DNA of 64,000 bases from Bugula neritina (Eukaryota; Bryozoa; Gymnolaemata; Cheilostomatida; Bugulidae): positions 724,501 to 788,500 of the forward strand of contig OZ037766.1 of NCBI GenBank assembly GCA_964035545.1, in the 5' to 3' direction. Below the pieces are notes generated by a model. It worked only from the letters and a program-made list of their open reading frames with translations, ran no database searches and was not told where the DNA came from. A program made the position numbers and the translations under genes. Shown here in pieces: positions 583 to 58,700 of the stretch. Positions within the stretch are counted from its first letter, which is position 1; every line of letters starts with the position of its first letter.

Positions 583-3500
583 CTTGGTTTTGTTGGGGAC
601 TAGATTAGCTATCTCCTCCCACCGATCATCAGCAGTCTTTGGCACTGAGGCTAGAGCATTCTCTAGACATTTCTGCTGAACCTGAGTCCAGTCTGAGACC
701 GGCTGAGACGGCGCAGAGTTACTAGCCTCAGGATCTTCAACTCGGTACGAGATTCCACCCTGGGGCTTGTAGCCGGCCCCCTTGTTTTTTATTTCTACAG
801 TAAAGAGCTTGTGTAATTGGACTACAGACATGATTAGAAGGATATTTTACAGATGTGTCAACCTGATGACACCTGTCAATATATGTCAACAACCTGTCGG
901 TATGTGTCAACACAAGTGATATTTACCTGGCAAAGCTGTCGCTGAGCTGCTGGCAGGTTTCTGCTGCAGTTGATTAGCCCGAGAGATCTGACTAGCCCTG
1001 GAATGAGCCTCTGCAGGTAAACAGTTGAGTTGTTGTGCTATCTTCTCCCACCTCATCTGAGTACCTACAGGGAACTTCTGCATGGCCCGGGCCAGCTTAG
1101 AGTAGTCTGCGTCTGTCCAATGAGTCTGTAAGGAACGAGTAGCTTATGTGTAAGGAGAGACAACTTCAACATATCAACACTGGCCATACAAACGAGTACT
1201 AATATCTACAGGAAAATGACATACAAATAGTAAGCAGCTTTTACTATGTCAGCAGTTGATTCATCATAACGAGATATTGTCACCTTGACCCACAGTTTAG
1301 TAATTAATAGAACAAAGTTCACTATTCCACGGCTGGCTGAGTATTACTCAACAGTTGAGAGACCTTTTTAGCCTGAGCAGTTGGTTTCTTAGCCTCAGGT
1401 GGTGAGACAGCAGGAAGGGGGGTGTCTTGGTACACCACAGGTTTGATGTAGGTGGCCATCTCTGGGGCAGACATGTTGGAGAATACGTCGTCACATCTCA
1501 CCTTCTTCTTCGACTCTTGATTGGTTTCTGCATACAGGAAGTCTGTTGAGGTGAGACAACTCCAAGTGCAAAGTGAAGTCATCAATATTATTATTAGAGA
1601 CGTCAAACTGTTGACTGATACTACGTAGAATACAGACAGACACAAGTGCGACATGAGAAAGTAAAGTGATTGTAATTTACCATCTTCAGACTCCGCCTCC
1701 CCTACTGGAGGTTTCACTCTCTGATGTAGGGCGGATAGACACCACCCTATGTTACTAGGCAAGTCAATGACTGTGCGTACAGTGAAGGTGACTAGACGGC
1801 ACACTAGCAGGTGTGAGAGGCGGGGCTTAGTCACACTTTCTAGCTCCTTCGCCATCGCTTCCTCTAAACTCTCATTATACTCCTGGTGATTCCTTCTTTT
1901 CGTGTCCTTTTTCATCCTTCTCTGAAATACTTCCTCCTACAACACAGGACCTGTGGTAGAGTACCTGTGGTCTAGTAGTAGAGTAGATCTAGTAGTAGAG
2001 TAGATCTAGTAGTAGAGTAGATCTGGTAGTAGAGTGCCAAAACTGAGAGAAACTAAGTAAGTAAAGTACACACTTACTATTTCATATCGTTTCTCCCAAA
2101 AAGCTGCCCAAATCATGGCATAGTGAATTACTGAAACTATTATCAACAAAACCAGAGCACTTTCTGTGAAGCCAAACTTTCTAACTTTCCTGTAGTAATA
2201 GATGGGTTGGCGCCATGTTGGTAGCCCATTCACTAGAATCTCATCATACCTGCAGTGTGGACACGCATTACGGATAATAACATTGGAAAAGGAACTCAAT
2301 TGATGTTTATTTCCAATTCACAGGCAACTCAGAAAATATAACTGTTGAGTCAGATGATTAGAATGCAAGTAGAAGTCTCTCAAGAATATCGCCATCATTA
2401 AAGTGAAACAGTTGTACAGTATGAGCCTGATACGTACACACATGTTCATCAGATACGTACACACATAGCAGATACGTACACATAGCAGATACGTACACAT
2501 ATAGCAGATACGTACACACATAGCAGATATGTACACACATAGCAGATACGTACACACATAGCAGATACGTACACATATAGCAGATACGTACACACATAGC
2601 AGATACGTACACATAGCAGATACGTACACATATAGCAGATACGTACACACATAGCAGATACGTACACATATAGCAGATACGTACACACATAGCAGATACA
2701 TACACATATAGCAGATACGTACACATATAGCAGATACGTACACACATAGCAGATACGTACACATATAGCAGATACGTACACATATAGCAGATACGTACAC
2801 ACATAGCAGATACGTACACATATAGCAGATACGTACACACATAGCAGATACGTACACACATAGCAGATACGTACACACATAGCAGAGATGTATACATACC
2901 GAGATCTCTTCCCATCAGTTCTCAATATGTCATAAATCCCAGCCAACTAAAAGCAAAAACTATTGTGATGTAATACAGTAAACTATTGTGATGTAATACA
3001 GTGAACTATTGTGATGTAATACAGTAAACTATTGTGATGTAATGCAGTAAACTATTGTGATGTAATGCAGTAAACTATTGTGATGTAATGCAGTAAACTA
3101 TTGTGATGTAATACAGTAAACTATTGTGATGTAATGCAGTAAACTATTGTGATGTAATGCAGTAAACTATTGTGGTGTAATGCAATGGATAAATTTTTAA
3201 GTGCTGCAAACATTGGGATTGCTGCTTTTACTTCTGCAAGTAAAAGCTGTAGATGCTACCAGTACCTGTCTAAACCTTTCTTCTGCGTCATCATTTTTAT
3301 TCTTGTCAGGATGCAAGACCAACGAGAGTTTTCTGTAGGCTCTACGAATGTCAGACGTGGTACAATCCTGCCGTATACACAGAACATAGACAATGACGAT
3401 GCTAATGTAAACATCTCAAACAATCAAAAGTTAGACTGTATACAATACTCATATGATCATCATCAATATGACTATTATAATCATATTGATACTCAGCTAT

Positions 3501-4883: not shown

Positions 4884-6210
4884 TTTACCTTTTTATTTCA
4901 GTTGGCCAGCATTACATCCGGTTAGGTGATACAATCGATAAAACATTTACTCGCTACTACATATCAAACTTTTTAACTAATCATTGATCTTTGTCAAAAC
5001 CTTTTGTTTCATAGAAGACAACTCTAATTAGTTGTAAGCGCTCTGTGGAATTCACACAATAAATGATTATTGTATAGTTAGTTCATTAGAGGCATCTTTC
5101 TAATTCAATGAAATGTTTCATGAGCTTTAATAAGGTATATCTTTTGTAGTGAAGCAAAATGAAAATAAATATTTGGAGTTGTGTTCCCAGCTAGTGTGTC
5201 GCTACCACTCAGTAGCAGAAATCTTCATAAATTAAACAACGCAGTATGATATATTGATGAGGTTTTCAATATATTATTTTTTCTCAAAATTCAAAAACAT
5301 AACAATACAGTATCACGAAATAAAATAATAAAAAATAATTTCAAAACATAATAATATAGAACTGTAATCATTTAAAACTGGCAGTATAAGTCATGATTCA
5401 TTAACCTCCACCAAATACAGATTATAACTCAAATAATAAATCACCTTAACATGATGTATAACAGAAATGCTAAGTACATAACATTATATATATACAAAAC
5501 ACTAGTCTGATGTCTTAATAATACACAGTAAATATAAATTTGGGTTATGCAGACATCACTAAAATAAATCTAGATATAGGCTGAAACTGAAAGCTAACTC
5601 AGTTTACTTCAACAACTTGAGTCAAATTATGTCGCTCGCAGTCGGGTATTTGTCATTATTGTATCTATCACCTATCTAACACTAACGACATACTACTGCC
5701 AAAATGTTATATTTAATAGTTTTACTGCGTCAGCAAAGAGTCAGGAAGAACTAATATAATATTTTAATGTTGAGCAACTGGCAATTGCTAATGGAGCAGT
5801 TAATTTATAACTGCAACTAAACCACAATGGAAAGAGATGAGTGCGTGAGTGAGTGAGTGAGTGAGTGAGTGAGTGAGTGAGTGAGTGAGTGAGTGAGTGA
5901 GTGAAAAATTAAGTGTGTGACTTCATGAGTGATAAAAAACGAGCGAGTGAATCAACAAGTAAGTTAACCAGAAAGTAAATGAGTGAGTTAGTGCCATGCT
6001 TCCCTGAATCATAATAATATAATGATTCTAAAAAGTTCAGCAATATGTAGTTGAACCGCTTGTGTCATGTGTGCGTTAGCTCTATCAATTATAGATTACT
6101 AGAAGACAAAGATTAGCACCCATTTCAGCTGCTCAGCTTGTTATGGAATTTAGTAGATATTATGCAATAAAGTAATATTTAACTAAACAAAGTAGAAGTG
6201 TCAGAGTAAT
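4884..6210. other. Intergenic region between DNAJC1 and SLC13
   Basis: AT-rich, with no supported gene. It holds a GTGA tetranucleotide run (5843-5903) and, from about 5490, the outer part of an inverted duplication that reappears near 18470-18840. GAGTTGTCTTCT, on the minus strand about 140 nt upstream of the DNAJC1 ATG, matches a motif seen elsewhere in the window. Confidence 0.6.
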
Positions 6211-6490: not shown

Positions 6491-9400
6491 AAATGCTATT
6501 TATGTATTAAATTGTATTATGATTTAACGTTATTAAAATTCTTCCAGGGTTTTACTTGATAAGACTAAATAGTTTCCACTATTGTTGCATATTTAATGCA
6601 ACTGAGATAGTGACAGGAGAAATTAACATAATATTAGAAATTGTGTTACCATGTCTAGCACTTTCAGATGTCCAAAAGCAAATACAATAGCATTAGGTGG
6701 TGTTGCTACGGGAAACGCAAAAGCGAAACTGGCGCATATAGTGACTGGAACTAAAATATATAAGGGATGGACTCCAATAGTGGCAGCCTACAAAACAGCA
6801 ACACAGAATGATTAGTACTCAAATATTCTACAAGAATAGCGTAATATTGTACTACAGGATAGACAACTCCAAATGATGACTAGATGTACCCACCAGTTGA
6901 GCTAGTATAGGTAGGAAGATACTGGCTGAAGAGGTGTTGCTGGTAAACTCAGTAAAGAAGGTCATCACAACTCCACATATAAATACTAGAGCAGCGGGTG
7001 GAATAGAGTCTAACACTCCTAGCTTACAGCCTAACCAATCAGAGAGGCCAGATTTCTAAATGAACCAATAAGAACTCATGTAAATATATAATATATATAA
7101 GATACTTCTGTTTATACCAGAACTGCTACATCTGTAATAAGAAGTTATAATAATGTTAGAGACACTATTTATTACGTAGTTAACATTACACAATACAAAG
7201 TTGTGGTTTCTATAATTGTGGAGATAATGAGTTAACTATTTATAATAGATAAGAAGTTAATTTAAACCACAATAATTCTTAGTATTTGAATAATAATATT
7301 ATAAATAGAGAATATAAATCCTCCAATGAAAAGCTAGTAATGATATAATAGTAAATAGTTAACTTCAGTACTGAATAAGATTACAGTAATACATACCTTG
7401 CACATGTCTGCTAAGGCGAAACCACCCCCTAGAAGGATGATAACTCCCCAAGGGAGCTTCTTCTGTACTGTAGGCCAGTCCAGTATGGGTGGACCCAACT
7501 GCAACCCTGAAATATGTGGTAAGAAACTTTATAACCCCAGTCTTTATTTTAATGAACTTATACTATGGAATGTGTGCGATTAAAATCATAATATTATAAT
7601 GTTACCACAATTTCCTATAACATATTACTTCATCTCCTAAAAATATAATATAAAATAAAGCAATATAATATAATATACGATGTGTACCTGATTTGTGTCC
7701 GCTTACACCCGGGAAACTGGAGGGGAAGACAAAGAGAAGCGTGCAGATGAATAAACCAGTAGCTGCGTCCGTTACAAACCTGCAAAGAAGTCAATCAGCT
7801 TATAAACATTACTGTAGAATACACTTACTCACAGTTACTAAATGTACAAATTATAGCTGCAGAATGCACTTACTTGGGCTCAAAGGCACTGGACCACCCT
7901 GGCATAAACTTGGGATCTCTGAACAACCACAGTAGGACCAGAATCACAAAGAAGGTTATCAAAATTATCTCCGGGCAACTGCAATTACAGAAATATACAT
8001 TCGTTAGACTATATTTTACAAAAATATTCAAATAAACTAATTAAACCGGTGACACAAACTCAAGTTTTGAATACTGAAGCAATTTTTTAAAGTAATTTGA
8101 AATGTTTCAGAGAGCACAGCTAATCTAGACGTACCTCGTTTTACCCAGTTTCTGGTATTCTCTTTTTAAAACTAGCTTCCCCCCTTCATTCTCAAACTCT
8201 GCGTCATTCTCACGGCAGAACAATGTTCTACAGAAAGTGCAGTTTTGGTAACATTGTACAATAGAATAACAATCTTAATGGAAGTTTAATAACCGCCCCC
8301 AAACTACCCCCCAAACTACCCCCGAACTACCCCTCAAACTACCCCTCAAATTACCCCCCAAACTACCCCTCAAACTACTCCCCAATCTACTACTCAAACT
8401 ACCCCCCCCCCCCCCTATGCTACTCCTCAACCTACCTCTCGAACTACGGATATAAGAACACAGATGTGAAACTGATTTTAGCTATAACAATACAGTAGTT
8501 AAACTCACCTGGGACCCAAGAACATTACTACCAGAATCACCCAACATATAAAAAGACAGATAATCATGAGAGGAAGGGAGAAGAGAATCCATGAACCAAA
8601 TGTGATGTCATCACTTTCTGGAAAATACCTGCAAACCGTAAATAATGATATCTATACTGAATACACCTATGAGTAAGTTATACCAACACTCACTTTGACA
8701 TGGTGTCATCTATGATTAAGCTATATCAACACTCACTTTGACATGCTGTCATCTATGAGTAAGCTATATAAAAACTCACTTCGACATGGTGTCATCTATG
8801 AGTAAGCTATATCAACACTCACTTTGACATGGTGTCACCTATGAGCAGGTTTGGCCCAGTGCCTGTCAGCGTACCAGTACCCCCAATGTTGGCAGCATAA
8901 CATATCGACAAAGAAACAGCTTTGCCCAGGTTCTGAAACTTTGGGCTCATTTCACTGGGTTTGAGCTCCTCCTCACCTCCTTTAGAGCTTGTGGGTCTGA
9001 AGAGTAGAGAGAAGAAGCTATTAGATACATGTTGATACTGTATATAGCCCTACATAACAGAGTATATACCTTTGTTCAGTCTCATTAGTTTGGTTCAGTT
9101 CAGCACCAGAAGTTGAACATCTGGAGAGTAACATTTGATAATCTGTACTCACGGTGCTTCACTGACAGCTACTCCATTTTCTTCATTTTGAGGTTCCAGT
9201 GGATATTCGTTTTCTACAATATTTGGCAATATAAAGACAAGTTCCACAGATGTAGAGGTAACTTAAAGTATTTCATGTTAAAACAAGGGTCATATTAAAT
9301 CCTCCAGTCTATTCACTAGAGCCAGAAACCATGCATACCATTCTCATGCTTCTTTTGTTTCCACATCTCTATGACAACGGCGTGTGCTATGGGAATCATC

Positions 9401-12400
9401 ATGGCCGTAGTAGCAGTATTGCTGAGCCACATGGAGAGGAAACCAGTAACGCTGATGAAGCCAAGTAGCAACCTGCAGAAATTTCACTAAATTATGTAGA
9501 TAACGGCAAGTAAAGTTCTTAAATTGGTCAAATAAAACTCAAAACTCAATGATATATTTGTTAGACCCTTAAACAAGTCAACAGAGGGTTTCTTGTGCTC
9601 ACATCTAACAGCTGCAGAGCTGAGTACAAAAGCTGGCTAAACTCTCTGGAAGTACATTCCTATTACAGGTGATAGAACTGTATTTCCAGCACATTGCAGC
9701 CATAGGACGCTCTAGCTATTCCATGTATCAAATATCAAGTGGTTATTGTTGCCTTAATATAGTATAATACACTGCAAGTTATATTGAGTTGTGTACACAA
9801 TATACATGTTAGGTTACAATATATTACATTACATATTATATATAATACATATCAGGTATCAATAGCTGCATGCTTATAATGAGCTATTATCTAGGTGTAT
9901 GAATAGACCTTCTGTCTCAATCACTTACTTGTGTTTATAACGATTGCAAGAAAAATATGTTACAGATTTTTAGGATAGAATTTTGGTTGACCAGCTCATG
10001 CTGGCTGCTGGTTGACAGGCTGGTTAGAGGTCAACTGAGTGCAAACTCGACTTGTTTAGCTTATGGTACCAACTGACATGTGGGTATAACGGGTATTCAA
10101 CCAGCAAACCATTCTTTACCAGTTGATTGTCAACCTAATTATTGTAGTATTTTCATTCTTGATAGAGTGATATTAAATATCTTACGTAAATTCGGCTAGA
10201 AAACTACCATGGCTCAAGTTTTACCATTAAACTAAAACTTTTTTAACTGCTTTCTTTTTGTAAAAAGAAATTTGTGGTAATTGATTTAAAACAATGGTGT
10301 TGGCGAGATGCCAAAGTGATTGAACAATGTTCAAAATAAACGTTGCAGTTCACTGAAGTTGGAAATTGGATTTCGGTTTATTAAATTAGAGCTGCGACCG
10401 AACATAGTCAGTGCAAGAATTGTTCTATTCAGAGATGAAATGTTAAGGAAAGTGTTACAATCACCATTTTGGATTTTTATTATTATTCCAAAATCATGAG
10501 GCATCAGAATATGATTGTAAATCAATTGGATTCATCACATGAGAGTGACTGAGTCACTTTGATTACTACTCACACCTGGCACTGGTGACTCATAGACTAG
10601 TAGTTAATAAAATAATATCCAGGTGGAATAAATGAATCTTTTACTCATGAGAGAAGACTGAAAGGAAAATGCTAGGAAAACCATGTTGATTGTTAAATGA
10701 ACTATCAGGAATTTTCATCTCTGCTAGATTTTACTTTCCAGAAATATGCGGAGTAATTCCCTTCTACTTAAGTGTTTGGCACAGAGCCAGATGTTAGAGA
10801 AATAACGAAGCGCTCATGTGAGGACTAGCATTACAAGAGCACACTAGCTAGCTATAACAGTGTGGAGTAGCCAAGCAATGCTGAGCTGTAATGTAAATTG
10901 ATTATTCAGTATTAACAGATACTAATATTATTTACTCATATGTAAGTGGATGTACGTCAACCCACACTATAATTACTACCCCTATATGTGGCTTGGTTCA
11001 TGCTGAATATAATATAAATAGTAGAAATCCTTACTCCAAACTTCCGGCTTTTAACGTTAGGTTAGAAAGAGCTGAAGTCAGAAGATACTAATAAGGCATT
11101 CAGTCAATATCATAGACTGTGAATGATTTGGAAAGAGTACGGGTGGGCTGTGGGAGCAACCCTACTTATTAAATATCTGTTTTAGTCTGGAAACTAATTA
11201 GCAAATGCTAAATTTATCTGCTCTGTTAATTATCAGAGTACAAATTACTTTCATGAGTTCATCTACAGACTTCTTCTCCCATTGGCTGAAGGCCAACTGA
11301 CAATGCAATATTTTTAGAAAGCTGTCATCACAGGTATTATGTAATAGTCTTACATTTTTGGCCTCGTTCCAACTAACATCAAAACTCTCAGGGCAATTCT
11401 TATGTGTAGATTCCACTTTTCTATTGCCACTGCAAATATCAGTCCAGCAACAAATAGGAAGTTTAGATCCTGAAAAAATGTAAAAGGTGTAGGCCTGGCC
11501 AGCTAGTGCAAGGCCTGGCCAGCTAGTGTGTGGCCCGGCCAGTGAGAATATGATAAACATATAAAAGTTAACTTATCAGAAATGTCCAAGCTGAAGGCAC
11601 TCAACTTGCAGTTTGCAAATCTACAAGTTTTAGAAAATAATTTTTGCACTGTCAGTCAAAAACTGCTTTCAAGATCAAAAATCAGCCCTAAAAGTCAAAT
11701 TATTCAAATATAGTTTTTGACATAAATTAAAAAGCAGTGCCAACAACTTTACCAGACAAAGCCATTACCCCAGATCTGTTAAACTGAAGTTAATCAGTCA
11801 AACAGCTTGCAGCTGCTAAACTAATCTCTCAATCAACTGATTTCACTATGATTCAAATGCTTTTTACAGAAAACTAGTTTTAGTGAAATTCTTACAATAG
11901 TTTTAGCTTTATAAGGTTATTTTGATATTAGCTAGTCTGTCACATTAAACAGGGGCAGACATGAGTGAGGGGCAGATGGGAGGTTATATAGTATACTTAC
12001 TGTTATATAGTATACTTACAGTATATAGTATACTTACAGTTATATAGTATACTTACAGTATATAGTATACTTACAGTTATATAGTATACTTACAGTTATA
12101 TAGTATACTTACAGTTATGTAGTATACATACAGTATATAGTATACTTACAGTTATATAGTATACTTACAGTATATAGTATACTTACAGTTATATCATACT
12201 ATACTTACTGTTATATAGTATACTTACTGTTATATAGTATACTTATAGTTATAGATTATACTTACTGTTATATAGTATACTTACAGTTATGTAGTATACT
12301 TACAGTTATGTAGTATACTTACAGTTATATAGTATACTTACAGTATATAGTATACTTACAGTTATATTATACTATACTTACTGTTATATAGTATACTTAC

Positions 12401-14304
12401 TGTTATATAGTATACTTACAGTATATACTATAGATTATACTTACTGTTATATAGTTTATAGCTATGACCTTTGCACCCAGCAAGCCAATGGCAGGAGATA
12501 GAAACATGGGAATTAAGGCTGTTGCTGGTAGTGGTAGTGCCTCGGTACACCAGTAGGTAGCCATTAATATCAGTATGTACAGACATTTGGCAATCTAAAA
12601 TATTTATAAGTAATAAATAACTTTTTGATAAATCAGTCTTTTCATTGCTACAGAAGGCCTGCGACATGAAATGCCTTCTGCTGGAACTGATTCCGTTCTA
12701 TACAGAATTTCTAGCATTTGACTCATGAGAGAGATTGTTTCACTGACTGAGATCTCTACCGCTGCCTACACACCATGCTGTCATACTTGGACAGCTTGTA
12801 TAGAGTGACATTTAGGTCAGCTAGTAGCTAATTAGTGGTGGGCAAGCTTGCCTAGCTCTAGAAGTTGTCTTGAAATTAATAAACAACTAGAGAGTATGTT
12901 TAGGTAAAAGCCCAACAGAGCTGGCATGTGAAAATCTCAATTCTGCATTTCCTATTATCTTGATTACATTATCTGATCCACTCCAGCAACTGTGTAACTT
13001 ACTGCTTGTCATGCAAACTCTAAATATCTATTATCTATATAATAGAAAGCCAATACCAGCCATCTTTAAAGGTGCAATAAGCTGGGAATTCCAGCTATTG
13101 AGTTCTACATTACCATACAGAGTCTGCAAGCATACTAAGTGATAGTCACCTGTTCATTTGGCTGCTGAGCTACCAGAAGAGGTGAGAGAAGTATCGGGGT
13201 GAGTACAATGACTAACAACTTCCAGTTCTTCAGCAACTCCTTCACAGTACTGCGCCAATGGCTACCTCCAGAGCTTATCGGGGAGTCCTCACGTCTGTCT
13301 GATAACTTTGTCAACGGTTCAGTGCTGGTGATGAAGTCGTGTTGAGAGGAGTCTGGGGAGAAGTCTAGCATAAGGGAAAGAGAAGACAAATCAGTTTATT
13401 TCAACTAAGAATATTGCTTCGCAAAGAGTTTAGCAAAACAAAACACAGTGAAGAGTAAAAGATACATCTAGGGTGAAAGTTTATGTAGCGCAAAATAACA
13501 CAAAATAGAATAAATAGCTTTGGTTTTAGTTTTATTTTCACTGAGTGTTTTGGAAGGGCCCCCATAAAGACGACCCAATTTCCTTCGGAGTCATGCTAGC
13601 CTTCTATAGGATGTTCACATGTAACTGACTCTGTACTAGTAGGCGACACTCCATACAGTTTACTCACTAAACTTTTAGCTCACAATCAACTATGTCTGTA
13701 GCATCACTAGAAGTTTACTAATATTAACACACTCAGCAATATTATGCTATTTAATTAGTGAGAACATAATTATCCTCTAAACCATATGAGTGATAATTAT
13801 TATATGAATTCACAGCACACTTTCCCTCTTCATGTTCATATTAATTGTTTATCATATTCCCATGTTGAAAGAGTTTGGAAAATATCATATTTTTACAGAT
13901 ATAAAAAGTTTAAAGCCTGACAACATTGCAAACTAATCTATCAACAGAGTCATGACGTGATAGCAACAAAATTTGTGTTGAATTGTCCTTTGAGCAATTC
14001 ACAGTTGAAAGCAACGGCACTGCAACAGGTCTGATAAGCAAAAGTGTGAGTGATCTAGTCAGTTAGCGTCAACCGCTAAGCTAGCAAACAACACCACTTA
14101 CCAGTCGTCTGTTCGAGCAGACGTACGTGCTCCCCATAACCATTCACTCCTGGAGTAAATAATCATGTCACATTACTCCCTATCACTGATGGCAACCTTT
14201 AGAGTTTATGTTTATTAATTGTCTTCACGGATACTTTTAGTTTACTCACCAACTTTGATGTCTTTATCCATGGGTGGAGAGAGATGATTGTTAGTAGAAG
14301 CCAT
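6211..14304 (-). CDS. SLC13 family Na+-coupled dicarboxylate/citrate/sulfate transporter
   Basis: Sixteen exons on the minus strand: 14250-14304, 14102-14149, 13150-13364, 12445-12594, 11354-11469, 9339-9472, 9153-9213, 8823-8996, 8509-8628, 8135-8227, 7874-7978, 7688-7779, 7397-7506, 6894-7055, 6650-6787, 6211-6348. They sum to 1,911 nt (636 aa plus stop) with phases that join throughout. The plasma-membrane symporter family is recognised from [68 protein letters not shown] and the SLC13 signature [19 protein letters not shown]. Both SNT sodium/substrate motifs are present. The C-terminus [17 protein letters not shown] is typical. The substrate (citrate, succinate or sulfate) cannot be decided. 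The ATG at 14304 gives a short cytoplasmic N-terminus before the first membrane segment. Several introns contain minisatellites, two of them built from the donor site. Confidence 0.93.
8281..8420. repeat. C-rich minisatellite (G-rich in the SLC13 transcript)
   Basis: About nine irregular AACTACCCCC-type units ending in a run of about 14 C, inside the intron between exons 8509-8628 and 8135-8227. In the minus-strand transcript it reads as repeated GGGG runs separated by TAGTTT. Confidence 0.9.
8665..8836 (-). repeat. Four 43-bp units duplicating an exon end and its splice donor
   Basis: Units 8665-8707, 8708-8750, 8751-8793 and 8794-8836. The last is the authentic end of exon 8823-8996: on the minus strand the exon ends GACACCATGTCAAA and continues GTGAGTG. 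The other three lie downstream in the intron and repeat that boundary with one or two changes, giving three extra potential donors. Confidence 0.95.
9473..11353 (-). other. Long SLC13 intron, no gene seen
   Basis: About 1.9 kb between exons 11354-11469 and 9339-9472. No coding exon, RNA gene or clear repeat is recognisable. Short open frames in it show no family resemblance. Confidence 0.5.
11985..12460 (-). repeat. About 19-bp minisatellite made of splice-donor copies (SLC13)
   Basis: More than 20 units whose minus-strand form is TATATAAC(A/T)GTAAGTATAC. The authentic exon 12445-12594 ends TATATAACA and is followed by GTAAGTATA, so the array repeats the last exon bases plus the donor. Its first unit overlaps the coding exon. 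Confidence 0.93.
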
Positions 14305-20674: not shown

Positions 20675-21548
20675 ATGGCCGAAAGACCAGAAGACCTGAA
20701 TCTACCCAATGCTGTTGTGACGAGAATCATGAAGGAGGCCCTTCCTACTGGCATTAATATCGGTAAAGACGCCCGCACAGCTATCAGCAAAGCTGCCAGC
20801 GTCTTTGTGCTCTACGCGACTTCCTGGTTAGTGTGCAGACGTCATATGATATGCAGACGTCATGTGATGTGCAGACGTCATGTGATGTGCAGACGTCATG
20901 TGATATGCAGACGTCATGTGATATGCAGACGTCATGTGATATGCAGACGTCATGTGATGTGCAGACGTCATGTGATATGCAGACGTCATGTGATCTGCGG
21001 ATGTCATGTGATATGCAGACGTCATGTGTCATTTCTTAATCTTGTCTTATTTTACATCCTTGTATGAGAAATGTTTCTGTGTATATCCACTCATCAAGCC
21101 GTCTAATACGACACGGTTATTAGCTGGGTGGGAGTTAGCCTCTAATTCTTGTCTTTCAGTGCGAATAACAACGCCTTGAAAGGGAAGAGAAAGACCATCA
21201 CAGCCAACGATGTCTACTCCGCGTTGTCTGAGATGGAATTTGAGGAGTTTATTGATCCGATAAAAGGGGAATTGGAGGGTGAGTAGTTAGTAGTTAGTAG
21301 TTAGTACTCAGTAGTTAGTAGTTAGTACTCAGTAGTTAGTGAGATACTCTTTATTAACAGTCCACAAGCAAGCCCAGGCTAGTAAAAAGAGTAAGAAAGC
21401 CGCCAAGTCTAAGTCAAAGGAAACTGTTGTCTCAGAGGAAGCGGATGCTGCAAATGATGTGAACGGGGTTGATCCAGGGGTGGATGAAGAACTAGTTGAG
21501 GGGGAAGACGCTGAGTCTAAGGAAAATGAAGTTATGGAGACATCCTAG
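20675..21548 (+). CDS. POLE3: POLE3 / CHRAC17, histone-fold subunit of DNA polymerase epsilon
   Basis: Three exons, 20675-20826, 21160-21278 and 21361-21548, total 459 nt (152 aa). The N-terminus [18 protein letters not shown] is nearly identical to animal POLE3. The histone fold continues through [20 protein letters not shown] and [20 protein letters not shown]. The tail is Lys-rich then acidic, as in the family (human protein 147 aa). POLE3 pairs with POLE4 in the leading-strand polymerase and with CHRAC15 in the ISWI remodeller, and chaperones H3-H4. The ATG at 20675 matches the conserved start. Intron 1 is almost entirely an 18-bp minisatellite starting at the donor; intron 2 is a short AGTTAGT repeat also starting at its donor. 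An AATAAA at 22072-22077 could serve as polyadenylation signal. Confidence 0.97.
20830..21029 (+). repeat. 18-bp minisatellite filling POLE3 intron 1
   Basis: About 11 units of GCAGACGTCATGTGATAT, beginning about 6 nt after the donor (GT at 20827-20828). Each unit contains the palindrome GACGTC. Confidence 0.95.
21279..21345 (+). repeat. Donor-derived AGTTAGT repeat in POLE3 intron 2
   Basis: The intron opens GTGAGTAGTTAGTAGTTAG and continues as repeated AGTAGTTAGT and AGTACTC units almost to the acceptor at 21360. The array includes the donor sequence. Confidence 0.85.
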
Positions 21549-41600: not shown

Positions 41601-44600
41601 GCTTGAAACCGTATTGGGCTAGCCCTGACGGAGTGGGAGAAGCCCCCCCGTTGTTAGAGCCCAGGAGGCAGACAACGACGCGCGGGCGACGGCGGCGTGG
41701 ACCTGAATACGAAGTGGTCATACCGCGGGAGGAAAACTTGGTGAGAGAGGAGCGGCAGCTTTTGTCAACAGAAGCGTGTCCGCCGCCGCCAAGTCTAATT
41801 CCATCACTTCCAGAAACCGAGCCGGTTCCGGAAGTGCAAACCCCCACGGAGGGAGGGGCTCCATCCGGAGAACAAGAAGAGGTGACCACTAACGGTGAAG
41901 TAGAGACGCCATTAGAGGCTCCTACTAACGAACCGGCAAGCGTGTCATCCAGAGAACAAGAAGAGGTGACCACTAACGGTGAAGTAGAGACGCCATTAGA
42001 GGCCCCTACTAACGAACCGGCAAGCGTGTCACCCCCCCTAGAAAGGGGACAGCGTACGAGGAAGCCCCCACCGTATTTGAAAGACTTCATATGTGACTGC
42101 ATTAGAAGCGGCGCACATGAAAGTCTAGGGGAAAACCGTACGATGAAATGTTGGAGTTGTGAACCCCACGCAAATATCAACTTTTGCGAGGGCGGAATAG
42201 TGGGAGGAATTAATGCGCGTAAAGCAAATAGTTCCGACCTCGTGCCTCAGAAACGATGCTCAGCCTTTTCTTATGCTGACATCGCCAAAGGCAGACGTAT
42301 CCCACAACCAGCTCCAACCTTACCAAGAACGTTGAGTATGGACATTAATACCGAGTTCTCAGGTAAGCCAGTATAAGTCTTGTATTCCTATTCATGGAAA
42401 CGGGCTCGATGCCAGTAAATTCTGAACTAATTCAGCAGATTGAATCAGAATTACTGGGAACCACGTTTCATGTGAATGACGATGAAGACACTGTAATGGC
42501 CGACGGTCTTTTAGACCTGGAGCTAGACACTGTTCTTGGTCAGTCCACACATGATTCATCAGTTCCTCGAGTGCATTCCAAAAGCTGTGACTCTCAGGCT
42601 AGCAACGGTCGACAGTCACTAGAATTATGTTGTAAAGATCCACCGCGATCTAACAATAATTCTACTTTTGTAGACACACTCGCGCCCGTCTCTACGGGCA
42701 TGCCTTCTCTAGAGATGGCGTGGGACCCAGAGCCGGCCCCAACAACTCCTACCACCAGGCAACTGCCACCTCAGTTGGAAGCAACCTCCAACTGGATTAC
42801 CCCTGCCACAGAGAGGGAAATCAGGACCCATCAAGGAGGTGAGAGTAATCGTGAATGCAACCTCTGCCAGCAGCGATTCACAACCCACCGCAGACTAAAG
42901 GTGCACTTGCCGCAGCATTACATCACCACTTTCTGCCCTTGCGGCGAATATAGCTATAACCGTGATTATCTGCTGCGGCACCAACGTACTATGCAGTGCT
43001 ATCAAGGACATGTCTATGAAGTAGACGAATCATCCTATCCTGCCTTTCTCAACGCCATTAAACCACTCATCACTGACTCAGCTCGGCTATCTCGCCTGGA
43101 GCAAGGCTTCCCTTCCCCGCGACCTATCACCTCTGGAGCTACAGATAAACCTACCCAGTCTGCTAACTCTCCACCTCACAGTCCTATACGCATGCCGCAT
43201 ACCTTTCCTCGTGTCGTACTACAGAGAGTAGACACAAATGCGTACACACTCCCTCCTCCTATTCCATCCTCAGAGCGGAAACGACACAGGCAACCAACTT
43301 CCTCTCGCTCGTCCCCCTGGGCCCGTAACCTACGTGAGGTAGAAGCTAGGGCGCATGACTTGGAGCAAGAAGTCTACAGGCTGGCCCCACGAATACAAGC
43401 AGCCTCCAGTGAACTCAAATACTTACAGGAGTCGATTAAACGCATGAAGCGTGCGGCCCGCAATTAACTCGAGTCTACCTACCACTCCCTACTACTCATT
43501 CCCCTACCTCTCTGTGGCATTCCCTACCGTAATGGTGGCACGTACTCTATATGTAGATAGGACCTTCTCTTGCTTATTACTTAGTGCACGATATATATAC
43601 CTGTATATTTTTTTTACCAGTTGTTGTTTTTTTTTTATATATATTATATACTTTTATATTGTTCTCTTACCCCCCAACGAAGTATACGTTTTTTTTTGTG
43701 AATCTTATTTTATCAGAAAGTGGGCTTTCTGCTGGAGGGGGCAGTGTGGTGGCTCGTGGAGCTACCAGCAACACAATACGCAAGGTTGCGTATTGACCCG
43801 GAACAATGTATTAGCCAATTAACTAAGCTGTTTGATAAGTAATAGTAGCCGCTTCGCGCTACTAGCTCAGTTGAGGATAGTGCTGTAAATTAAATAGACG
43901 TGCGTATCATTACTGTTGTACCTTAAATTTTATTATGTATTCTTGTATTAAAATATAACGATATCTACTCGACTTAACACGGTGAAGTTTCTCTAGTGAT
44001 AAATAGACTCTCTTGGTGACACATCAACCCTAAATCTGAAAACTATAACACTAGCATATGCTATCAGTCTCAAAAAGCACAGTGAAGACACGGTAAGCAG
44101 CTAAGGACTAGAAAGACACCAGCTGCATGAGGATGGCTTCGTATCAATCGATAAGAATAATAAATTACTAACTCATCCTCAACTCTCTCTATAAAATGGC
44201 ATAATTAGGTAACATAAATCAATTATAATCACTATTTCACACCAGCCATGGGAATATTACAATACCTCAATTCACAGTATAATATTAGGCAATAGTACTA
44301 TAGACTAAATACAGCCCAGTAGGATATTCAGATACATCTTTATACTCTGTATACTCTACTCTGTATATTCTGTATATTCTACTCTGTATATTCTACTCTG
44401 TATACTCTACTCTGTATACCCTACTCTGTATACTCTACTCTCTATACTCTCTACTCTGTATACTCTGTATACTCTACTCTGTACACTCTACTCTGTATAT
44501 TCTACTCTGTATACTCTACTCTGTATACTCTGTATACTCTGTATACTCTACTCTGTATACTCTGTATACTCTACTCTGTATACTATACTCTGTATACTAT

Positions 44601-45641
44601 ACTCTGTATACTCTACTCTGTATACTCTACTCTGTATACTCTACTCTGTATACTCTACTCTCTATACTCTACTCTCTATACTCTACTCTGTATACTCTAC
44701 TCTGTATACTCTACTCTGTATACTCTACTCTGTATACTCTACTCTGTATACTCTACTCTGTATACTCTACTCTGTATACTCTGTATACTCTACTCTGTAT
44801 ACTCTACTCTGTATACTCTACTCTGTATACTCTACTCTGTATACTCTACTCTCTATACTCTACTCTCTATACTCTACTCTGTATACTCTGTATACTCTAC
44901 TCTGTATACTCTACTCTGTATACTCTACTCTGTATACTCTACTCTCTATACTCTACTCTGTAGAAAAGCAGACGTACCTAAACAGGAAACAGCCGACTAG
45001 AGCTGCCAGCCGGGTTCCGATTCTCTTCTCCAGAAGCCCGCCAAAGTACATGGCCGCCCCCTGACCAAAGACGTTGAGCCCAAACACCCACACCGTGTCA
45101 CTGTATTCAAGGGTGGAGGGGGAGGAATAGGTCCGGATGTAGGACGTTACGTAGGGGTTGAGGTTACCTGGAAGGGGATGGACAAACAGACAGAGTGAGT
45201 CATATGAAAAGAATGATAAGAATTACGTTCTGAGTTTAGTTTACTTTGATAAAATAGCAAATTATTATATTATATAACTAAAATATTGTATATAATGAGT
45301 ATTATATACTATTTATTATCTTATATGGTGTAATTGATAATACTTATAACATAGAACAATATATTATGTAACATTTTAGATACTTACAACTAGACATTTA
45401 AGAACCCCTAGTCATTAGATTAGTTCCTTTGATTCTGCATGAGAATAACATTGTATTTTTTTTGAGATAGTCCTAGAGGGAGTTACCCTATAATACCATC
45501 ACACCAGGAGTTTGAGAAAGGCTGTAGTCATACTGACATGTGGAATATAAATTAGCCCTCACCCCAGCAATACAGAGTACCCAGTGTGAGGTGTATCAGT
45601 AGGCCCCCAAACACTGAGAGATATCCTTTGTAAGAAGTCAT
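32667..45641 (-). CDS. MFS transporter 1 (OFA/monocarboxylate-like), interrupted by an LTR element in intron 2
   Basis: Nine exons: 45563-45641, 44978-45167, 36041-36167, 35335-35489, 34996-35166, 33745-34135, 33449-33670, 33045-33144, 32667-32722; total 1,491 nt (496 aa). A 12-helix major-facilitator protein. The N-terminus is IHLTLGTLYCWGNLNPYVTS. Loop motif A is seen twice, as GGLLEKRIGTRLA after helix 2 and GRISWGFVADKTSFR in the second half. The central loop (exon 34135) holds hydrophilic DHPVDSK repeats. The protein resembles oxalate/formate-antiporter-like carriers; the substrate is unknown. Exon boundaries and phases (1,2,0,2,2,0,0,1) equal those of the paralogue at 55765-59488, which fixed the terminal exon SFVLAISFN...KVV. 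Intron 2 is 8.8 kb because a 7.5-kb retrotransposon sits in it in antisense; exons 1-2 lie between two inverted copies of that element. Confidence 0.88.
32835..33033 (-). repeat. GTAGCAGGTGACAGCAG repeat after MFS1 exon 8
   Basis: About 11 units of 17-25 bp (GGTGACAGCAGGTAGCAAGTA variants), starting about 6-11 nt after the donor GTAAGTC at 33038-33044. Confidence 0.93.
33170..33435 (-). repeat. AT-rich repeat in MFS1 intron 7
   Basis: Irregular TAATATAGTAATATAATAA units over about 265 bp, starting about 13 nt after the donor GTGAGTTC (33441-33448). Confidence 0.93.
34670..34985 (-). repeat. 19-bp minisatellite in MFS1 intron 5
   Basis: About 16 units of GTGTCACACATGCAGACAA, starting about 14 nt after the donor GTGAGT (34990-34995). 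Short frames through it are spurious. Confidence 0.95.
35189..35325 (-). repeat. 28-bp minisatellite in MFS1 intron 4
   Basis: About 4.5 units containing GTGTGAACTCGAGAGAGAGA, starting about 16 nt after the donor GTGCGT and occupying most of the 168-nt intron. Confidence 0.93.
36161..36330 (-). repeat. 21-bp repeat of a splice acceptor (MFS1 exon 3)
   Basis: Eight units of GCTGATACTAAAACACACAG plus T. On the minus strand each reads TGTGTTTTAGTATCAGC, the same as the real acceptor TTTTAG and the first bases of exon 36041-36167. About seven decoy acceptors lie directly upstream of the real one. Confidence 0.93.
36513..36818 (+). repeat. 5' LTR, copy A
   Basis: 306 bp, TG...CA ends. It holds a near-perfect palindrome CAATACGCAA-GG-TTGCGTATTG (36542-36563) and a hairpin TAGTAGC-CGCTTCGC-GCTACTA (36611-36632). 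Confidence 0.97.
36820..36837 (+). promoter_or_regulatory. Primer binding site (tRNA-Leu type), copy A
   Basis: TGGTGGCAGCGGTGGGAT starts 1 nt after the LTR. It is the complement of the 3' end of a common animal tRNA-Leu including its CCA (from memory of tRNA-Leu(AAG) ends), so tRNA-Leu probably primes minus-strand DNA synthesis. Confidence 0.8.
36852..37718 (+). CDS. gag: Gag, copy A
   Basis: 288 codons, beginning 33 nt after the 5' LTR. The central part (KAPTFTGSEDVEQFIQEF, then WPHRVALIQLRRAVTEQAK) resembles the capsid region of gypsy-type Gag (retrotransposon_gag family), which forms the particle around the RNA. No CCHC zinc knuckle is visible, although most Gag proteins of this group have one. 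The last 95 nt overlap the pol frame, and a slippery site lies 15 codons before the stop. A frameshifted product would have 274 Gag residues followed by a strongly basic segment (GGKRRRLSVRTRR) that may bind nucleic acid instead. Confidence 0.9.
   Translation: METENARMQPPPVEGERRNAVNPVNREAEEAYRHCLKAPTFTGSEDVEQFIQEFREVMEVAQWPHRVALIQLRRAVTEQAKPYGVGTDVDGILAALRARFGTSVIDARTKLERLCRTPRTSLQEHAATVKKLAQIAYSDLPAQHQERYTYDAFVQSLNDLGLDHHLRAKGITRIEDALKAGEAYLLATQMHQAQRNPPVVGVSAARATTGSEALPLEAEVDRMVEMLGQLVTILASAGPGQALRMPPTSVGQGWSSADQDQGPKGRPQYQGALNCHGPRTHSLPAGRN
37667..37711 (+). promoter_or_regulatory. -1 ribosomal frameshift signal between gag and pol, copy A
   Basis: Heptamer G_TTA_AAC (37667-37673), phased exactly on gag codons. 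A 5-nt spacer follows, then a hairpin with a perfect 10-bp GC stem (CGGCCCGCGG at 37679-37688, CCGCGGGCCG at 37702-37711) and a 13-nt loop. The pol frame is open across this point (stop at 37622-37624) and is -1 relative to gag. Confidence 0.85.
37673..42376 (+). CDS. pol: Pol polyprotein (PR-RT-RNase H-IN), copy A
   Basis: Open from the frameshift point to TAA at 42374-42376. The first in-frame ATG is at 37892 (1,494 codons from there). Numbered from that ATG: aspartic protease LLDSGCTTN (DSG at 68-70), reverse transcriptase with YLDDVIV (498-504), RNase H with DTDASD (from 645), integrase zinc domain H913-x3-H917...C947-x2-C950, and catalytic D979, D1039, E1075 with the DD35E spacing. A GPY/F-like segment (PKFVGPYVV) follows. 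It makes element cDNA and integrates it. The C-terminal tail is Pro/Glu-rich and contains a 78-bp in-frame tandem duplication (REQEEVTTNGEVETP twice). No key residue is missing, so the protein could be active. A CAG/GTAAGC donor-like site lies near the 3' end. Confidence 0.96.
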   Translation: MSRPADTLPPRGPQLKEYGGKRRRLSVRTRRNAPPEWQVPRRTSRPAQRPSTFSLPLTNRFHRLPREEEPATEMEPEGPVERPEPRRHQPRRRKPRKPRVKPPPSCQPRTTHAGGVKVQPHGESYFLPGKVAGNAVTFLLDSGCTTNLLSRRVFEALPRRDRDRVRPYTGEHGTLADGSCIPFYGIIELPGRVRDQAVQETFIIGQLEEDAILGMPFLKQHQCRIDFSKSVVLMGGRELACVDKFGRPLVGGVQVVRNCTVPGRSRATIHCRVNSNRIARLGVVEGAHERIQLASSLNRLTERGEVLVQCVNPFTEPIELPAGSMLGRFHSVQEEDVGPSLGDATEAPPRHPIQGRGAVPTHLRELYETASGGCASNRERQAMAKLLRDYGDVFSSGEHDVGLTGIVRHEIPLTAGTAPVRQPTRRLGPEKEKEVSRQVRDLLDRGLIEPAHSAWSSPVVLVRKKDGSWRFCVDYRKLNSVTIQDAYPLPRIDESLDALAGSKYFSTLDLLSGYWQVPLSPDAQEKAAFITRDGLWKWKVLPFGLTSAPATFQRLMEQVLSGLHWKTLLVYLDDVIVISPDFETHVSRLQEVFERLRGAGLKLKPSKCALLQPEVKYLGHVVGRNGVATDPEKVRAVEDWVTPQDLTGLRAFLGLVGYYRQYIPDFAGIAQPLNRLTAKGVTWQWTPVEQEAFDRLKGCLLTAPILAYPDPTLEYILDTDASDQNVGAVLSQVQEGREVVVAYYSKSLSPAERNYCTTRKELLAVIKSVKHFRPYLYGRKFRLRTDHASLIWLCKRAEPSSQVARWLEILAEFSYRIEHRPGKRHSNADGLSRRPDGGCKQCLNIERRDGGPPRCELETLAHHGAPFDWDQGQLRQRVDESPEDVQNLRANPVLAGNVRELKKLQEELPGVVADIYRAKREGRRPSEERIRQGCAEFRLYCQRWDSLRIGQDGLLTISLAASGRHPERKRVVCPTAIRRELIWDTHKQAHAGVKRVISKLRLRWYWPQMERDVRLRVKQCEICQASKHSRPPGEAGRRRLYAGRPWQVVAVDLVGPMPLTPRGNNWILVLTDHFTRWADALAIPDASAPTVARALDQHVFCYFGLPEQIHSDQGAQFQSQLMSDLCHLWGVNQSRTTPYHPQGNGVVERNNRMLGDALRSLLLGRGQEEWDTVLPQVMRAYRSTPHTSTGETPNLLMLGRETRVPDHLTYHVPEQDNSVHEYASELVERMKAAHDILRQQQWKVRHEDSDEPPLYQRGDKVWMVNYRRRRGQADKLKPKFVGPYVVVEAMPNHTYKIERSGQVSIQNESRLKPYWASPDGVGEAPPLLEPRRQTTTRGRRRRGPEYEVVIPREENLVREERQLLSTEACPPPPSLIPSLPETEPVPEVQTPTEGGAPSGEQEEVTTNGEVETPLEAPTNEPASVSSREQEEVTTNGEVETPLEAPTNEPASVSPPLERGQRTRKPPPYLKDFICDCIRSGAHESLGENRTMKCWSCEPHANINFCEGGIVGGINARKANSSDLVPQKRCSAFSYADIAKGRRIPQPAPTLPRTLSMDINTEFSGKPV
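42394..43467 (+). CDS. C2H2 zinc-finger/coiled-coil ORF3 in the env position, copy A
   Basis: 357 codons, starting 17 nt after the pol stop. Residues 155-175 fit a classical C2H2 finger (C155-x2-C158-x12-H171-x3-H175). A second, atypical finger follows: C181-x-C183-x12-H196-x5-C202. The N-terminus is acidic; the middle is Ser/Pro-rich; the last 50 residues (AHDLEQEVYRLAPRIQAASS) look like a coiled coil. There is no signal peptide, furin-like site or membrane segment, so it is not an envelope protein. A DNA- or RNA-binding accessory role is inferred, not shown. How it is translated is unclear: reinitiation or a spliced RNA are possible. Confidence 0.8.
   Translation: METGSMPVNSELIQQIESELLGTTFHVNDDEDTVMADGLLDLELDTVLGQSTHDSSVPRVHSKSCDSQASNGRQSLELCCKDPPRSNNNSTFVDTLAPVSTGMPSLEMAWDPEPAPTTPTTRQLPPQLEATSNWITPATEREIRTHQGGESNRECNLCQQRFTTHRRLKVHLPQHYITTFCPCGEYSYNRDYLLRHQRTMQCYQGHVYEVDESSYPAFLNAIKPLITDSARLSRLEQGFPSPRPITSGATDKPTQSANSPPHSPIRMPHTFPRVVLQRVDTNAYTLPPPIPSSERKRHRQPTSSRSSPWARNLREVEARAHDLEQEVYRLAPRIQAASSELKYLQESIKRMKRAARN
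43733..43744 (+). promoter_or_regulatory. Polypurine tract, copy A
   Basis: TGGAGGGGGCAG immediately before the 3' LTR, the usual primer for plus-strand synthesis. Confidence 0.8.
43745..44050 (+). repeat. 3' LTR, copy A
   Basis: 306 bp, identical by inspection to the 5' LTR of the same copy. Confidence 0.97.
44331..44962 (-). repeat. 14-bp minisatellite in MFS1 intron 2
   Basis: About 45 units of TCTGTATACTCTAC, starting about 15 nt after the donor GTACGTC (44971-44977) of exon 44978-45167 and ending about 280 bp before the LTR element. Confidence 0.95.
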
Positions 45642-47822: not shown

Positions 47823-47839
47823 GAATAGGAATACAAGAC

Positions 47840-53364: not shown

Positions 53365-53378
53365 CTTTAATGTACACT

Positions 53379-53396: not shown

Positions 53397-53397
53397 C

Positions 53398-55764: not shown

Positions 55765-58700
55765 CTAGACGAGTTTTCCATTAGCCCGTCTCGCATTGAA
55801 TGTCAGACTGAGAACAAAGGCTACAAAGCAGCAGAACACAACTCTCAATATCGTCATAGTCGAGCCAAAACATTGGAACATTACACAGAGTAACTACTGC
55901 ATAGAGTTGTGTCCTCTTGTACTTATATAAATAATAGTCATGGAGTTGTCTTCCATCATCTCACTGAAGTTAGATATGAGCTACACAAACAGTATTGACA
56001 TTTAAAGTGTATATAATATTATATACTTACATATAAATGATAAACCAGCCGATAGAATGAATATCCCGTAAGAATGTAACTTCTGAAGTAGAAAAGTGCT
56101 GAGTAGTGCTCCTATTGGCCCAGCCACTGCCTACGGAGGGATGATGCAATACAACATTATAGAAAGACATGGGTCTACTAATTATACCAGCGCAAGAGTT
56201 CTTCAGATAATTTAAGCCACACTTACCGAGGAGGTGAAGAGAACCCCGTAGTTTATGGAAACGTATTGAGGGCCAAAAGTCTTAGCAATGGCAGTAGGAA
56301 ATAAAGAGAAATTCCCAGAGAATGTCATAAAGATGAGACAAATCCAAACAAAGAGTAGAGGTTTCCCAGCTGACTCGGCAAATACGTGAGTAATGTAAAG
56401 AGAAGCCATGAGGCAAGTCATTGCAGAGGTGAGTGTGACGATGGCAGCCTACAGTACGGCAGCATGACTCAGAGTCAGCAGGTCATATTGACTGGTTTAT
56501 ACAGGTAATATATGGTACATATTAACTGGTTTATACAGGTAATATATGGTACATATCAACTGGTTTATACAGGTAATATATGGTACATATTAACTGGTTT
56601 ATACAGGTAATATATGGTACATATCAAGTGGTTTATACAGGTAATATATGGTACATATCAACTGGTTTATACAGGTAATATATGGTACATATCAACTGGT
56701 TTATACAGGTAATATATGGTACATATCAACTGGTTTATACAGATAATATATGGTACATATTACCTGGTTTATACAGGTAATATATGGTACATATCAACTG
56801 GTTTATACAGGTAATATATGGTACATATCAACTGGTTTATACAGGTAATATATGGTACATATTAACTGGTTTATACAGGTAATAATCTATGACTCACCTT
56901 GAAAGAAACTTTGTCAGCAAACAACCCCCATATTATCCTCCCGACAGCATTGCATACGGCAGCAGCAGAGCCGAGAGTGGATAAAAACCGGTCATCATTG
57001 ACGACCTCACTCTCCCCGTACGTCTTGTACAGAGTGGATATGAACAGCACACACACTGCATTCAGCAGAAACATGAACCATAGAGTAATAAAGTGCCGTG
57101 TCTTTACCATCTCTCTTGGTGACATACTGGATACTGGGTGAGACCCCCTAAGGGCTGGAGTCTCCCCCTCCTCACTACAGATAAACAAGTAGATCACAGT
57201 CTAGCTTGCTGTCACACCATACTGTGTACAGGATAAACAAATAACTACTCAATACTGAACACCACTGACTATTTATAGCAAACTTTCTTAGTTTAAATTA
57301 CCACTTCAATCCTAAGAAATGTGAATAAGGAACTAATTGTATGTCACAAGACACCAAGGCAGAAGGGCATATACTATAGAGGGGGAATACCCAGTGGATA
57401 GCGGAGGTTCTGTTATTAGAGCCTGTGCTTCTTCCTTTCTCATGTTAGTGCGAGATTTGACTGGAAACAGTAGCATAACTCCAACAACTTGCAGGGCCGC
57501 ATAGCAGCCACCCAACAGCATGAACATGTTAGGAACTGAGTCTAGAATGGAGTCGTCATTGAAGTACCTGCAGGAAATGAGGTAGTACAGGAAATGAGAT
57601 AGTACAGGAAATGAGATAGTTACTACAGGAAATGAGACAGTTACTACAGGAAATGAGATAGTCAGTACAGGAAATAAGATAGTACAGGAAACGAGATAGT
57701 CCCAGCTTACTTGTCATTCCCGATATTCTGAGTAGTGTTCAGTTCTTTAGCCCCAACGGCCTTGACATTGTGAGGATTCAGGAAGGCTGTTTGCACTTGA
57801 TCAAATATAAACGCCCCACCTCCAAATCCTGCCACAATAAACCCATTGGCTATACCCTTGTGTTCAGGAAACCACTGGAGAGTAAATCATTTTATCATCA
57901 GATTGATGAGATTCAGAAAGGTACACACGTCTGCACGGGTAGATTCAGTTCTCAAGTTCTGATTGGTACAAGAATAAAACTCACACTCATGGCTACAGAC
58001 ATTGGTGGAGCATAAGCTATGCCGATACCAACTCCAAACATAACACCATACGTTACTAGAAACAGGTAATAACTAACTCGGATTGTAAACGCAGAGAGAA
58101 ATACTCCTAAACTGAAAATAGAGAAATAGGAACAGCTGTTACTATAAATGGAAAAATAGGAACAGCTGTTACTATAAATAAAATTAGAACAAAACTAGAG
58201 ATTTCATACCCTGAAAAGTTAAAATATAAAAACAAGAAACACAATGCCGTTTGGTAATCATTTGCAAAAATTTTAAATAATGAAAAAAACTTCAAATCTT
58301 TTCACAAACAGTTTTATACACAGAGGGCAGTAATCATAGAGTATATTGCCTGCAGCAGACACAGAAATAGACTGTAACCTTGTGGTTAGACCTCCGATTA
58401 AAGTAGCAAGTCGGGTGCCAATCCTCTTCTCTAGGATTCCCCCGAGAAACATGGCTAAGCCTTGTCCAGTCACGGCCAGAGCAAACACCCAAACCGTATC
58501 CCCGTACCGCAGTGTCGTGGGCTGGGAGGAGCGCCTTATGTAGGACGTTACGTAAGGGTTGATGTTACCTACAGGACGTTACGTAAAGGTTGATGTATAA
58601 ACCAAACAACAAACTATAAATTAAAAGCTTCATTCTACAGAAAAAACAACAACTATGTTCATTCAAAGAGAAATGTATTAGAGCTACAACTATTACTTAT

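Follow-up and report, generated by a model that had tools for sequence, protein, structure and literature searches.

Minisatellite-like arrays beside and across splice sites in a region of Bugula neritina chromosome 2

We examined a 64,000-nt stretch of chromosome 2 of the bryozoan Bugula neritina (C2:724501-788500, hereafter the window), located 0.72-0.79 Mb from the low-coordinate end, in which minisatellite-like tandem arrays lie beside or across the splice sites of several genes. The window was chosen because this pattern is visible in it. Six genes from five families were rebuilt, with 37 introns across which the reading frames remain open: two OxlT-like MFS paralogues (A and B), a DnaJ gene that we take to be DNAJC1-like, a zinc-knuckle gene (presumably ZCCHC7-like), an SLC13-like transporter, and a POLE3/CHRAC14-like gene. 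The original prediction listed 17 donors, all of which are GT dinucleotides at the positions given for them, consistent with the frame and present among the 37 rebuilt introns. It also held that five unrelated genes on both strands were affected; several genes and both strands are indeed involved, but the count is six genes in five families. The assembly used comprises 215.8 Mb in 295 contigs, with chromosomes 1-8 of 35.64, 33.58, 32.42, 24.80, 17.72, 16.05, 15.81 and 13.35 Mb, and the published assembly tzBugNeri2.1 is described as having 216.00 Mb in 320 scaffolds and a consensus quality value (QV) of 53.7 (PMC11480708). An alternate haplotype of B. neritina exists (GCA_964035465.1); our comparisons cover one haplotype.

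Homologue support was good for the MFS, SLC13 and POLE3 models and thin for the zinc-knuckle and DnaJ models, which were built on open frames and splice consensus. The SLC13-like and POLE3-like junctions aligned without gaps to solved homologues (for SLC13, the sequence of the SLC13A2 structure), and MFS A and B corroborated each other. A homologue search with the zinc-knuckle protein found none, and an Rfam search at gathering scores yielded no match. As an outside check, we used four recognisable genes from other sampled stretches, not chosen for the pattern (38 introns, 26 arrays): a GBF1-like gene (Pfam TPR_28), a kinesin-domain gene that we assume to be KIF4-like, a mitochondrial carrier, and GRB2, the junctions of which aligned without gaps. 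No match was obtained in PDB with a KIF4-like piece, or in Pfam with the first GBF1-like piece or the KIF4-like tail. The outside introns were predicted with a small gene finder that had been trained on the window and ignored the arrays, except for one GBF1 donor placed by eye against the protein; this finder recovered 33 of the 37 window introns exactly, the window being its training set. A further 183 introns were predicted ab initio outside the window and, since these include false genes (for example, across GRB2), the four recognisable genes were preferred. Before the ab initio test, introns with a flanking-exon score <3 and arrays extending >20 nt past the acceptor or >60 nt past the donor were dropped, and the stretches L013 (pure satellite), L016 and L018 were left out of the ab initio and edge-motif tests. 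Array edges are those of Tandem Repeats Finder (TRF); the window set consists of 24 arrays outside transposable elements with a TRF score ≥80, giving a total of 50 intronic arrays and 75 introns. Misplaced exon ends or assembly errors might produce the pattern artificially, as exon ends were read from DNA alone, the search with the zinc-knuckle protein returned no homologue, and the outside gene finder was trained on the window. However, the open frames across the rebuilt introns, the gap-free alignments over the SLC13, POLE3 and GRB2 junctions and the published QV make this explanation very improbable.

In a minority of cases, the array unit resembles the junction of its own intron. We aligned 14 exon and 6 intron nucleotides at each donor (and the mirror segment at acceptors) with the array's own unit, using the junctions of other introns as a control. 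At a score of at least 10, own-donor matches were found for 5/50 arrays (0.22 expected) and own-acceptor matches for 3/50 (0.08 expected), which indicates that units cross the junction at both ends. The donor-derived arrays are those at 8822, 12444, 28807 and 30424 in the window and one in GRB2, which is CT-rich and weak; the acceptor-derived arrays are that at 36168 in the window, one in the mitochondrial carrier and one in the GBF1-like gene. In rank tests against other junctions, 5/50 donors and 4/50 acceptors fell below 0.05, as did 4/50 reverse-complement units; at 0.02, five donors, three acceptors and no reverse-complement units remained. Combined over all arrays, the rank tests were not significant (0.42 and 0.59), so the junction-derived class rests on a few strong cases. 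The proposal that the arrays are copies of splice-site DNA therefore holds for these eight arrays, but not for the other 42, which match neither their own donor nor their own acceptor.

All the junction-derived arrays of the window are on the minus strand. In the SLC13-like gene, the intron with donor 8822 and acceptor end 8629 carries 4.2 copies of a 43-bp unit (8667..8845; approximately 16 exon and 27 intron nt), and the intron with donor 12444 and acceptor end 11470 carries an array (11983..12461) with a 19-bp unit containing the exon tail and the donor. The latter array includes its donor in a 173-bp TRF reading (edge at -11), but not according to the other TRF edge (+12). The exon end in the SLC13-like gene is fixed by protein homology, which means that the array was copied from the exon. 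In the zinc-knuckle gene, the array at donor 28807 (28689..28835; acceptor end 28637) has 2.3 copies of a 63-bp unit including about 26 exon nt, and that at donor 30424 (30253..30428; acceptor end 30207) is built on a 15-bp unit carrying the donor sequence CAG|GTAAAT. The 21-bp array at the acceptor end of MFS A intron 1, at 36168 (36161..36322), reaches 7 nt into the exon, and its unit contains the acceptor and the exon head. Inclusion of the splice site, predicted for several arrays, was thus confirmed for donors 8822, 28807 and 30424 and for acceptor 36168. However, the array at 21279 starts at +3, leaving the donor outside, the array at acceptor 2947 ends 10 nt short of it, and 58569 has only a two-copy duplication. 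At this last acceptor, in MFS B (58530-58600), about 30 nt comprising the exon start and the acceptor occur twice in tandem, which by eye is a two-copy junction duplication.

Two of these arrays present rows of donor-like sites. With the true donor included, the 12444 array has 23 sites above 5 bits, of which 22 score 8.8-9.0 bits and one scores 6.2 bits; the 30424 array has 11 such sites, again including the true one, spaced 15 nt apart and in frame. Their retention would be expected if arrays were kept for splicing or transcript protection, with donor rows recruiting U1 or offering alternative 5' splice sites. However, use of most donor-like sites in the 12444 array would disrupt the reading frame, a donor-like site of at least 7 bits is found in the sense consensus of just 6/50 units versus 5/50 in antisense, and paralogous introns (below) manage without arrays. 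We therefore consider maintenance for such a function to be improbable, and the sense and antisense counts speak against selection for sense donors in the units.

The other window arrays described here lie within introns, beside the junctions, on the minus strand except in the POLE3-like gene. In the zinc-knuckle gene, a 33-bp array of 934 nt (27566..28499) occupies almost the whole of the 945-nt intron 28502-27558, a 12-bp array (26689..27138) lies 24 nt from the donor and 37 nt from the acceptor end of intron 27162-26652, and a 45-bp array (25866..26259) lies 16 nt from the donor of intron 26275-25771, the acceptor of which was set by frame. The DnaJ introns 2899-2250 and 3265-2947 contain a 19-bp array (2450..2886; 13 nt from the donor, 200 from the acceptor end) and a 23-bp array (2957..3184; 81 and 10 nt), respectively. 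On the plus strand, the POLE3-like gene has an 18-bp array (20834..21028) in intron 20827-21159, 7 nt from the donor and 131 nt from the acceptor end, and a 7/21-bp array (21282..21340) in the 82-nt intron 21279-21360, 3 and 20 nt from these sites. MFS A intron 1 (44977-36168; 8810 nt, with a long terminal repeat (LTR) element inside) has a second array, with a 14-bp unit (44343..44962), 15 nt from the donor. After most of the listed donors, arrays had been predicted to begin about 6-16 nt inside the intron; they are indeed near these donors, but TRF edges give a range of 3 to 27 nt. The units are mostly unrelated to one another, as had been proposed: a shared 14-mer was found in nine pairs out of 132 arrays, including the duplicated LTR element and several cases of simple AT-rich motifs. 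The idea of a single spreading repeat family was rejected on this basis.

The MFS paralogues provide a test of the relative age of introns and arrays. MFS A and B have seven intron positions in common. Both genes carry arrays at I1 and I3 and both lack them at I2; of the others, I4, I6 and I7 are occupied in A alone and I5 in B alone. In MFS A, a 24/89-bp array (32849..33036) lies 9 nt from the donor and 126 nt from the acceptor end of intron 33044-32723, a 16-bp array (33173..33433) lies 15 nt from the donor of intron 33448-33145, and a 19-bp array (34665..34976) lies 19 and 529 nt from the donor and acceptor end of intron 34995-34136; the homologous B introns (96 and 216 nt for the last two) have none. 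Conversely, the 34-bp array of MFS B intron 56897-56449 (56484..56884; 13 nt from the donor, 35 from the acceptor end) has no counterpart in the 74-nt homologous A intron. The 28-bp array of MFS A intron 35334-35167 (35188..35315) is 19 nt from the donor and 21 nt from the acceptor end, and MFS B also has a 17/21/42-bp array in intron 57710-57568 (57571..57701; best-scoring edge 27 nt from the donor), the unit of which does not resemble that in the homologous intron of A, and a 30-bp array in intron 58391-58107 (58116..58191), 9 nt from the acceptor end. The I3 units of A and B are no closer to each other than shuffled sequences (similarity score 6.0 versus 5.7); the I1 comparisons gave 7.0 versus 3.9 and 5.2. 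Five of the six array-free MFS introns are 74-216 nt long and the sixth is 551 nt long. This last intron, MFS A intron 2 (35490-36040), has an inverted-repeat segment resembling a miniature inverted-repeat transposable element, and its counterpart in B measures 110 nt. The best protein match of the MFS B gene (55758-58568) is a B. neritina protein with 91% identity over 48% of the query. B. neritina includes cryptic species, and an identity of only 91% could reflect either these or a paralogue.

Identical intron positions with different arrays imply that the introns are older than the arrays. Birth and growth of introns by tandem duplication of splice-site DNA had been suggested, and such a process could act on segments that include AGGT; some introns consist almost entirely of array (934 of 945 nt at 28502), and there are AG|GT units at 30424. 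The two MFS genes, in which introns at common positions may or may not contain arrays, contradict intron birth of this type, which we consider extremely improbable; at none of the seven positions was the intron missing from the other gene, in a comparison covering the MFS paralogues.

We then compared array positions with those expected by chance. In the window, the start of 15/24 arrays falls no more than 20 nt from the donor, versus 6.9-7.0 when arrays are placed uniformly in these introns (p=5e-5), with no excess at acceptors (6/24 ending within 20 nt). The predicted association with splice sites beyond chance thus applies to window donors, but not to acceptors, and it was not confirmed as a genome-wide rule: the four outside genes had 9/26 donor-proximal arrays versus 6.1-8.8 expected (p=0.10-0.57, not significant). 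With a protected null, in which arrays were kept out of the 3-6 nt next to the donor and the 20-45 nt next to the acceptor, the outside expectation was 7.4-8.8 and the excess disappeared. Among the ab initio introns outside the window, 13/62 arrays were donor-proximal versus 8.5 (p=0.035), and in a motif-only test outside the window, a donor-like site was found at the array edge in 13/90 cases versus 7.6 (reached by 17/500 placements; reversed control, 4). Arrays without junction homology were donor-proximal in 11/19 cases in the window versus 5.5-8.0 (p=0.001-0.027) and in 8/23 cases outside it versus 4.5-7.3 (p=0.05-0.44). The donor excess is therefore real in the window and in the same direction elsewhere, but it is unproven as a rule.

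Such an excess would be expected if tandem duplication started preferentially at 5' splice sites, for example through R-loops or paused transcription or spliceosomes, and then grew into the intron. The 5' splice site of B. neritina would then be a hot spot of array birth, where breaks linked to transcription, or template switching, seed new arrays; introns would lengthen, series of usable donors would be left behind, and splice-site positions would shape the map of repeat birth. The window excess, the donor-derived arrays at 8822, 12444, 28807 and 30424, and the donor-proximal position of 19/42 intronic-only arrays over all genes (versus 10.0-15.3; p=0.0002-0.06) are in line with this possibility. 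However, acceptor-derived arrays are nearly as frequent as donor-derived arrays (three versus five), contrary to the idea that duplication starts at donors only, donor-like sites are as common in antisense as in sense units, and the outside genes have no significant excess. An R-loop origin in particular does not agree with the composition of the arrays, the sense strands of which are not G-rich: mean GC skew was -0.08, with 21/50 arrays positive (p=0.19), and no R-loop-like skew was found. The sense strands are T-rich (AT skew -0.12, p=0.0003), but this provides no clue, since array-free introns are similarly skewed (-0.13). Preferential initiation at the 5' splice site, and thus a hot spot there, appears unlikely to us.

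Frequent duplication everywhere, followed by selection, predicts that arrays should also occur in exons, with in-frame periods. Four arrays lie wholly within rebuilt exons, with periods of 18, 21, 21 and 15, all divisible by three, whereas the 50 intronic arrays are distributed 20/17/13 over the three classes of period modulo 3. A fifth candidate array, lying over an acceptor, is not counted among the exonic ones. In-frame coding-exon repeats are located at 25317-25452 (18 bp) in the zinc-knuckle gene and at 34074-34121 (21 bp) in MFS A.

Array density was higher in the sampled stretches near chromosome ends. We sampled the low-coordinate ends of chromosomes 1-8 and 17 other stretches, all from chromosome 2. 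The array fraction was 0-62% in 12 stretches within approximately 0.8 Mb of the low ends of the eight chromosomes (5/12 on chromosome 2) and 0-13.7% in 16 of the 17 others (p=0.0017), the 17th being pure satellite. Clusters of minisatellites near chromosome ends are a general pattern. The pure satellite stretch (L013, C2:18100001-18110000) consists over its full 10 kb of about 517 copies of a 20-bp unit and is possibly centromeric.

The window also contains two LTR retrotransposon copies, at 36511-44050 and 46166-53705, in opposite orientation on either side of the first rebuilt MFS A exon. They differ at 2/7550 positions, their LTRs are identical within each copy (308/308), and by eye the flanks suggest different 4-bp target duplications, all of which point to two very recent insertions. 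The element has a separate open reading frame of 366 aa after pol, zinc-finger-like by eye, and its 84-bp array was excluded from the intron counts. The gap between the SLC13-like and POLE3-like genes contains nested inverted repeats, imperfect (82-97%) and 60-345 nt in length (14202-14647 / 17199-17646 and 5929-6693 / 17949-18731).

Taken together, these data suggest that the arrays are probably, for the most part, a by-product of tandem duplications that occur often near chromosome ends and are filtered, in short introns, by the demands of splicing and reading frame; a minority cross junctions. What was read directly comprises the anatomy and positions of the arrays, the paralogue comparison, the junction-like units, the frame pattern and the zoning of the sampled stretches. 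In the process that we envisage, short segments in a minisatellite-rich zone would be duplicated in tandem often and at many places, and arrays would grow by slippage or unequal exchange. Selection would then leave units divisible by three in exons and, in introns, arrays sparing the donor, branch site and acceptor. A minority of duplications would cross a junction and survive because the original outer splice site still serves; splicing would use this outermost site, and rows of duplicate donors or acceptors would result. A donor requires approximately 6 nt, and the branch site and acceptor require tens of nucleotides. Array-free introns have a median length of about 200 nt, leaving little room, so an array will lie near both exon edges, and nearer the donor, where the block to be spared is smaller. 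Arrays in short introns will therefore appear to be anchored on splice sites, and caution is required.

Several observations weigh against this by-product interpretation. The donor excess in the window survives the protected null (15/24 versus 9.6-11.1; p=0.0007-0.006). With a null in which intron lengths are drawn from array-free introns, 17% of arrays are expected to be donor-proximal, versus 9/26 in the outside genes (p=0.023) and 24/50 overall (p=4e-7). Where at least 100 nt of the intron lie outside the array, 9/24 arrays over all genes are donor-proximal versus 1.7 expected (seven of the nine in the window), with no matching excess at acceptors (2/24 within 20 nt and 6 within 60). Two of the 12 end stretches, on chromosomes 5 and 6, are nearly array-free, and a distant stretch at 27.7 Mb is array-rich. 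Finally, introns with arrays hold less non-array sequence (median 114 nt, including one unit) than array-free introns (203 nt; p=0.018), which the by-product interpretation explains only loosely; short introns may be where arrays arise, or arrays may take the place of intron sequence. A residual donor excess thus remains, mostly in this selected window. If it were genome-wide, repeat birth would be tied to splicing or transcription. The chromosome-level assembly and the second haplotype make array birth and the effect of duplicate donors on splicing testable.

A limited search of the open-licence literature found no bryozoan report of such arrays, and the words tandem repeat, minisatellite and intron are all absent from the Flustra genome paper. 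Parallels are found in other animals. The higher array density near chromosome ends resembles that of human subtelomeric minisatellites (PMC3486850), but our sample covers low-coordinate ends, and those of chromosomes 5 and 6 are array-poor. In the human IFI6 (6-16) gene, a minisatellite provides multiple splice donor sites (Turri 1995, cited in PMC4526556 and PMC2572611), as the repeats of the 30424 and 12444 arrays may do, judging from their donor-like sequence; IFI6 is, however, a single gene, for which alternative donor use is known. Variable internal tandem repeats at exon-intron boundaries are also described in human segmental duplications, where they form novel introns (PMC2812944), whereas the Bugula introns are older than the arrays where paralogues allow a test. 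The closest parallel is with the lancelet 'mirages', minisatellite-like tandem repeats over exon-intron boundaries in Adh3, troponin C, the globins BflGb6 and BflGb9, and PGBD5, which are described as unstable in length and as leaving regular splicing undisturbed (PMC3087553, PMC3902484). Tandem repeats across exon-intron boundaries have thus already been reported; what the original prediction presented as new was a genome with arrays routinely placed at donors. As in the lancelet cases described, Bugula units tens of base pairs long span boundaries at both the 5' and 3' ends in several genes, and an intact original splice site stands beside the arrays, with GT and AG in place at 75/75 introns and open frames. 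Unlike them, the Bugula arrays are known from the DNA sequence of one haplotype, and the unit spans the boundary in 8/50 arrays, the other 42 lying beside it. The mirage phenomenon is thus carried to a distant phylum, with many cases together and array-free paralogous introns for comparison.

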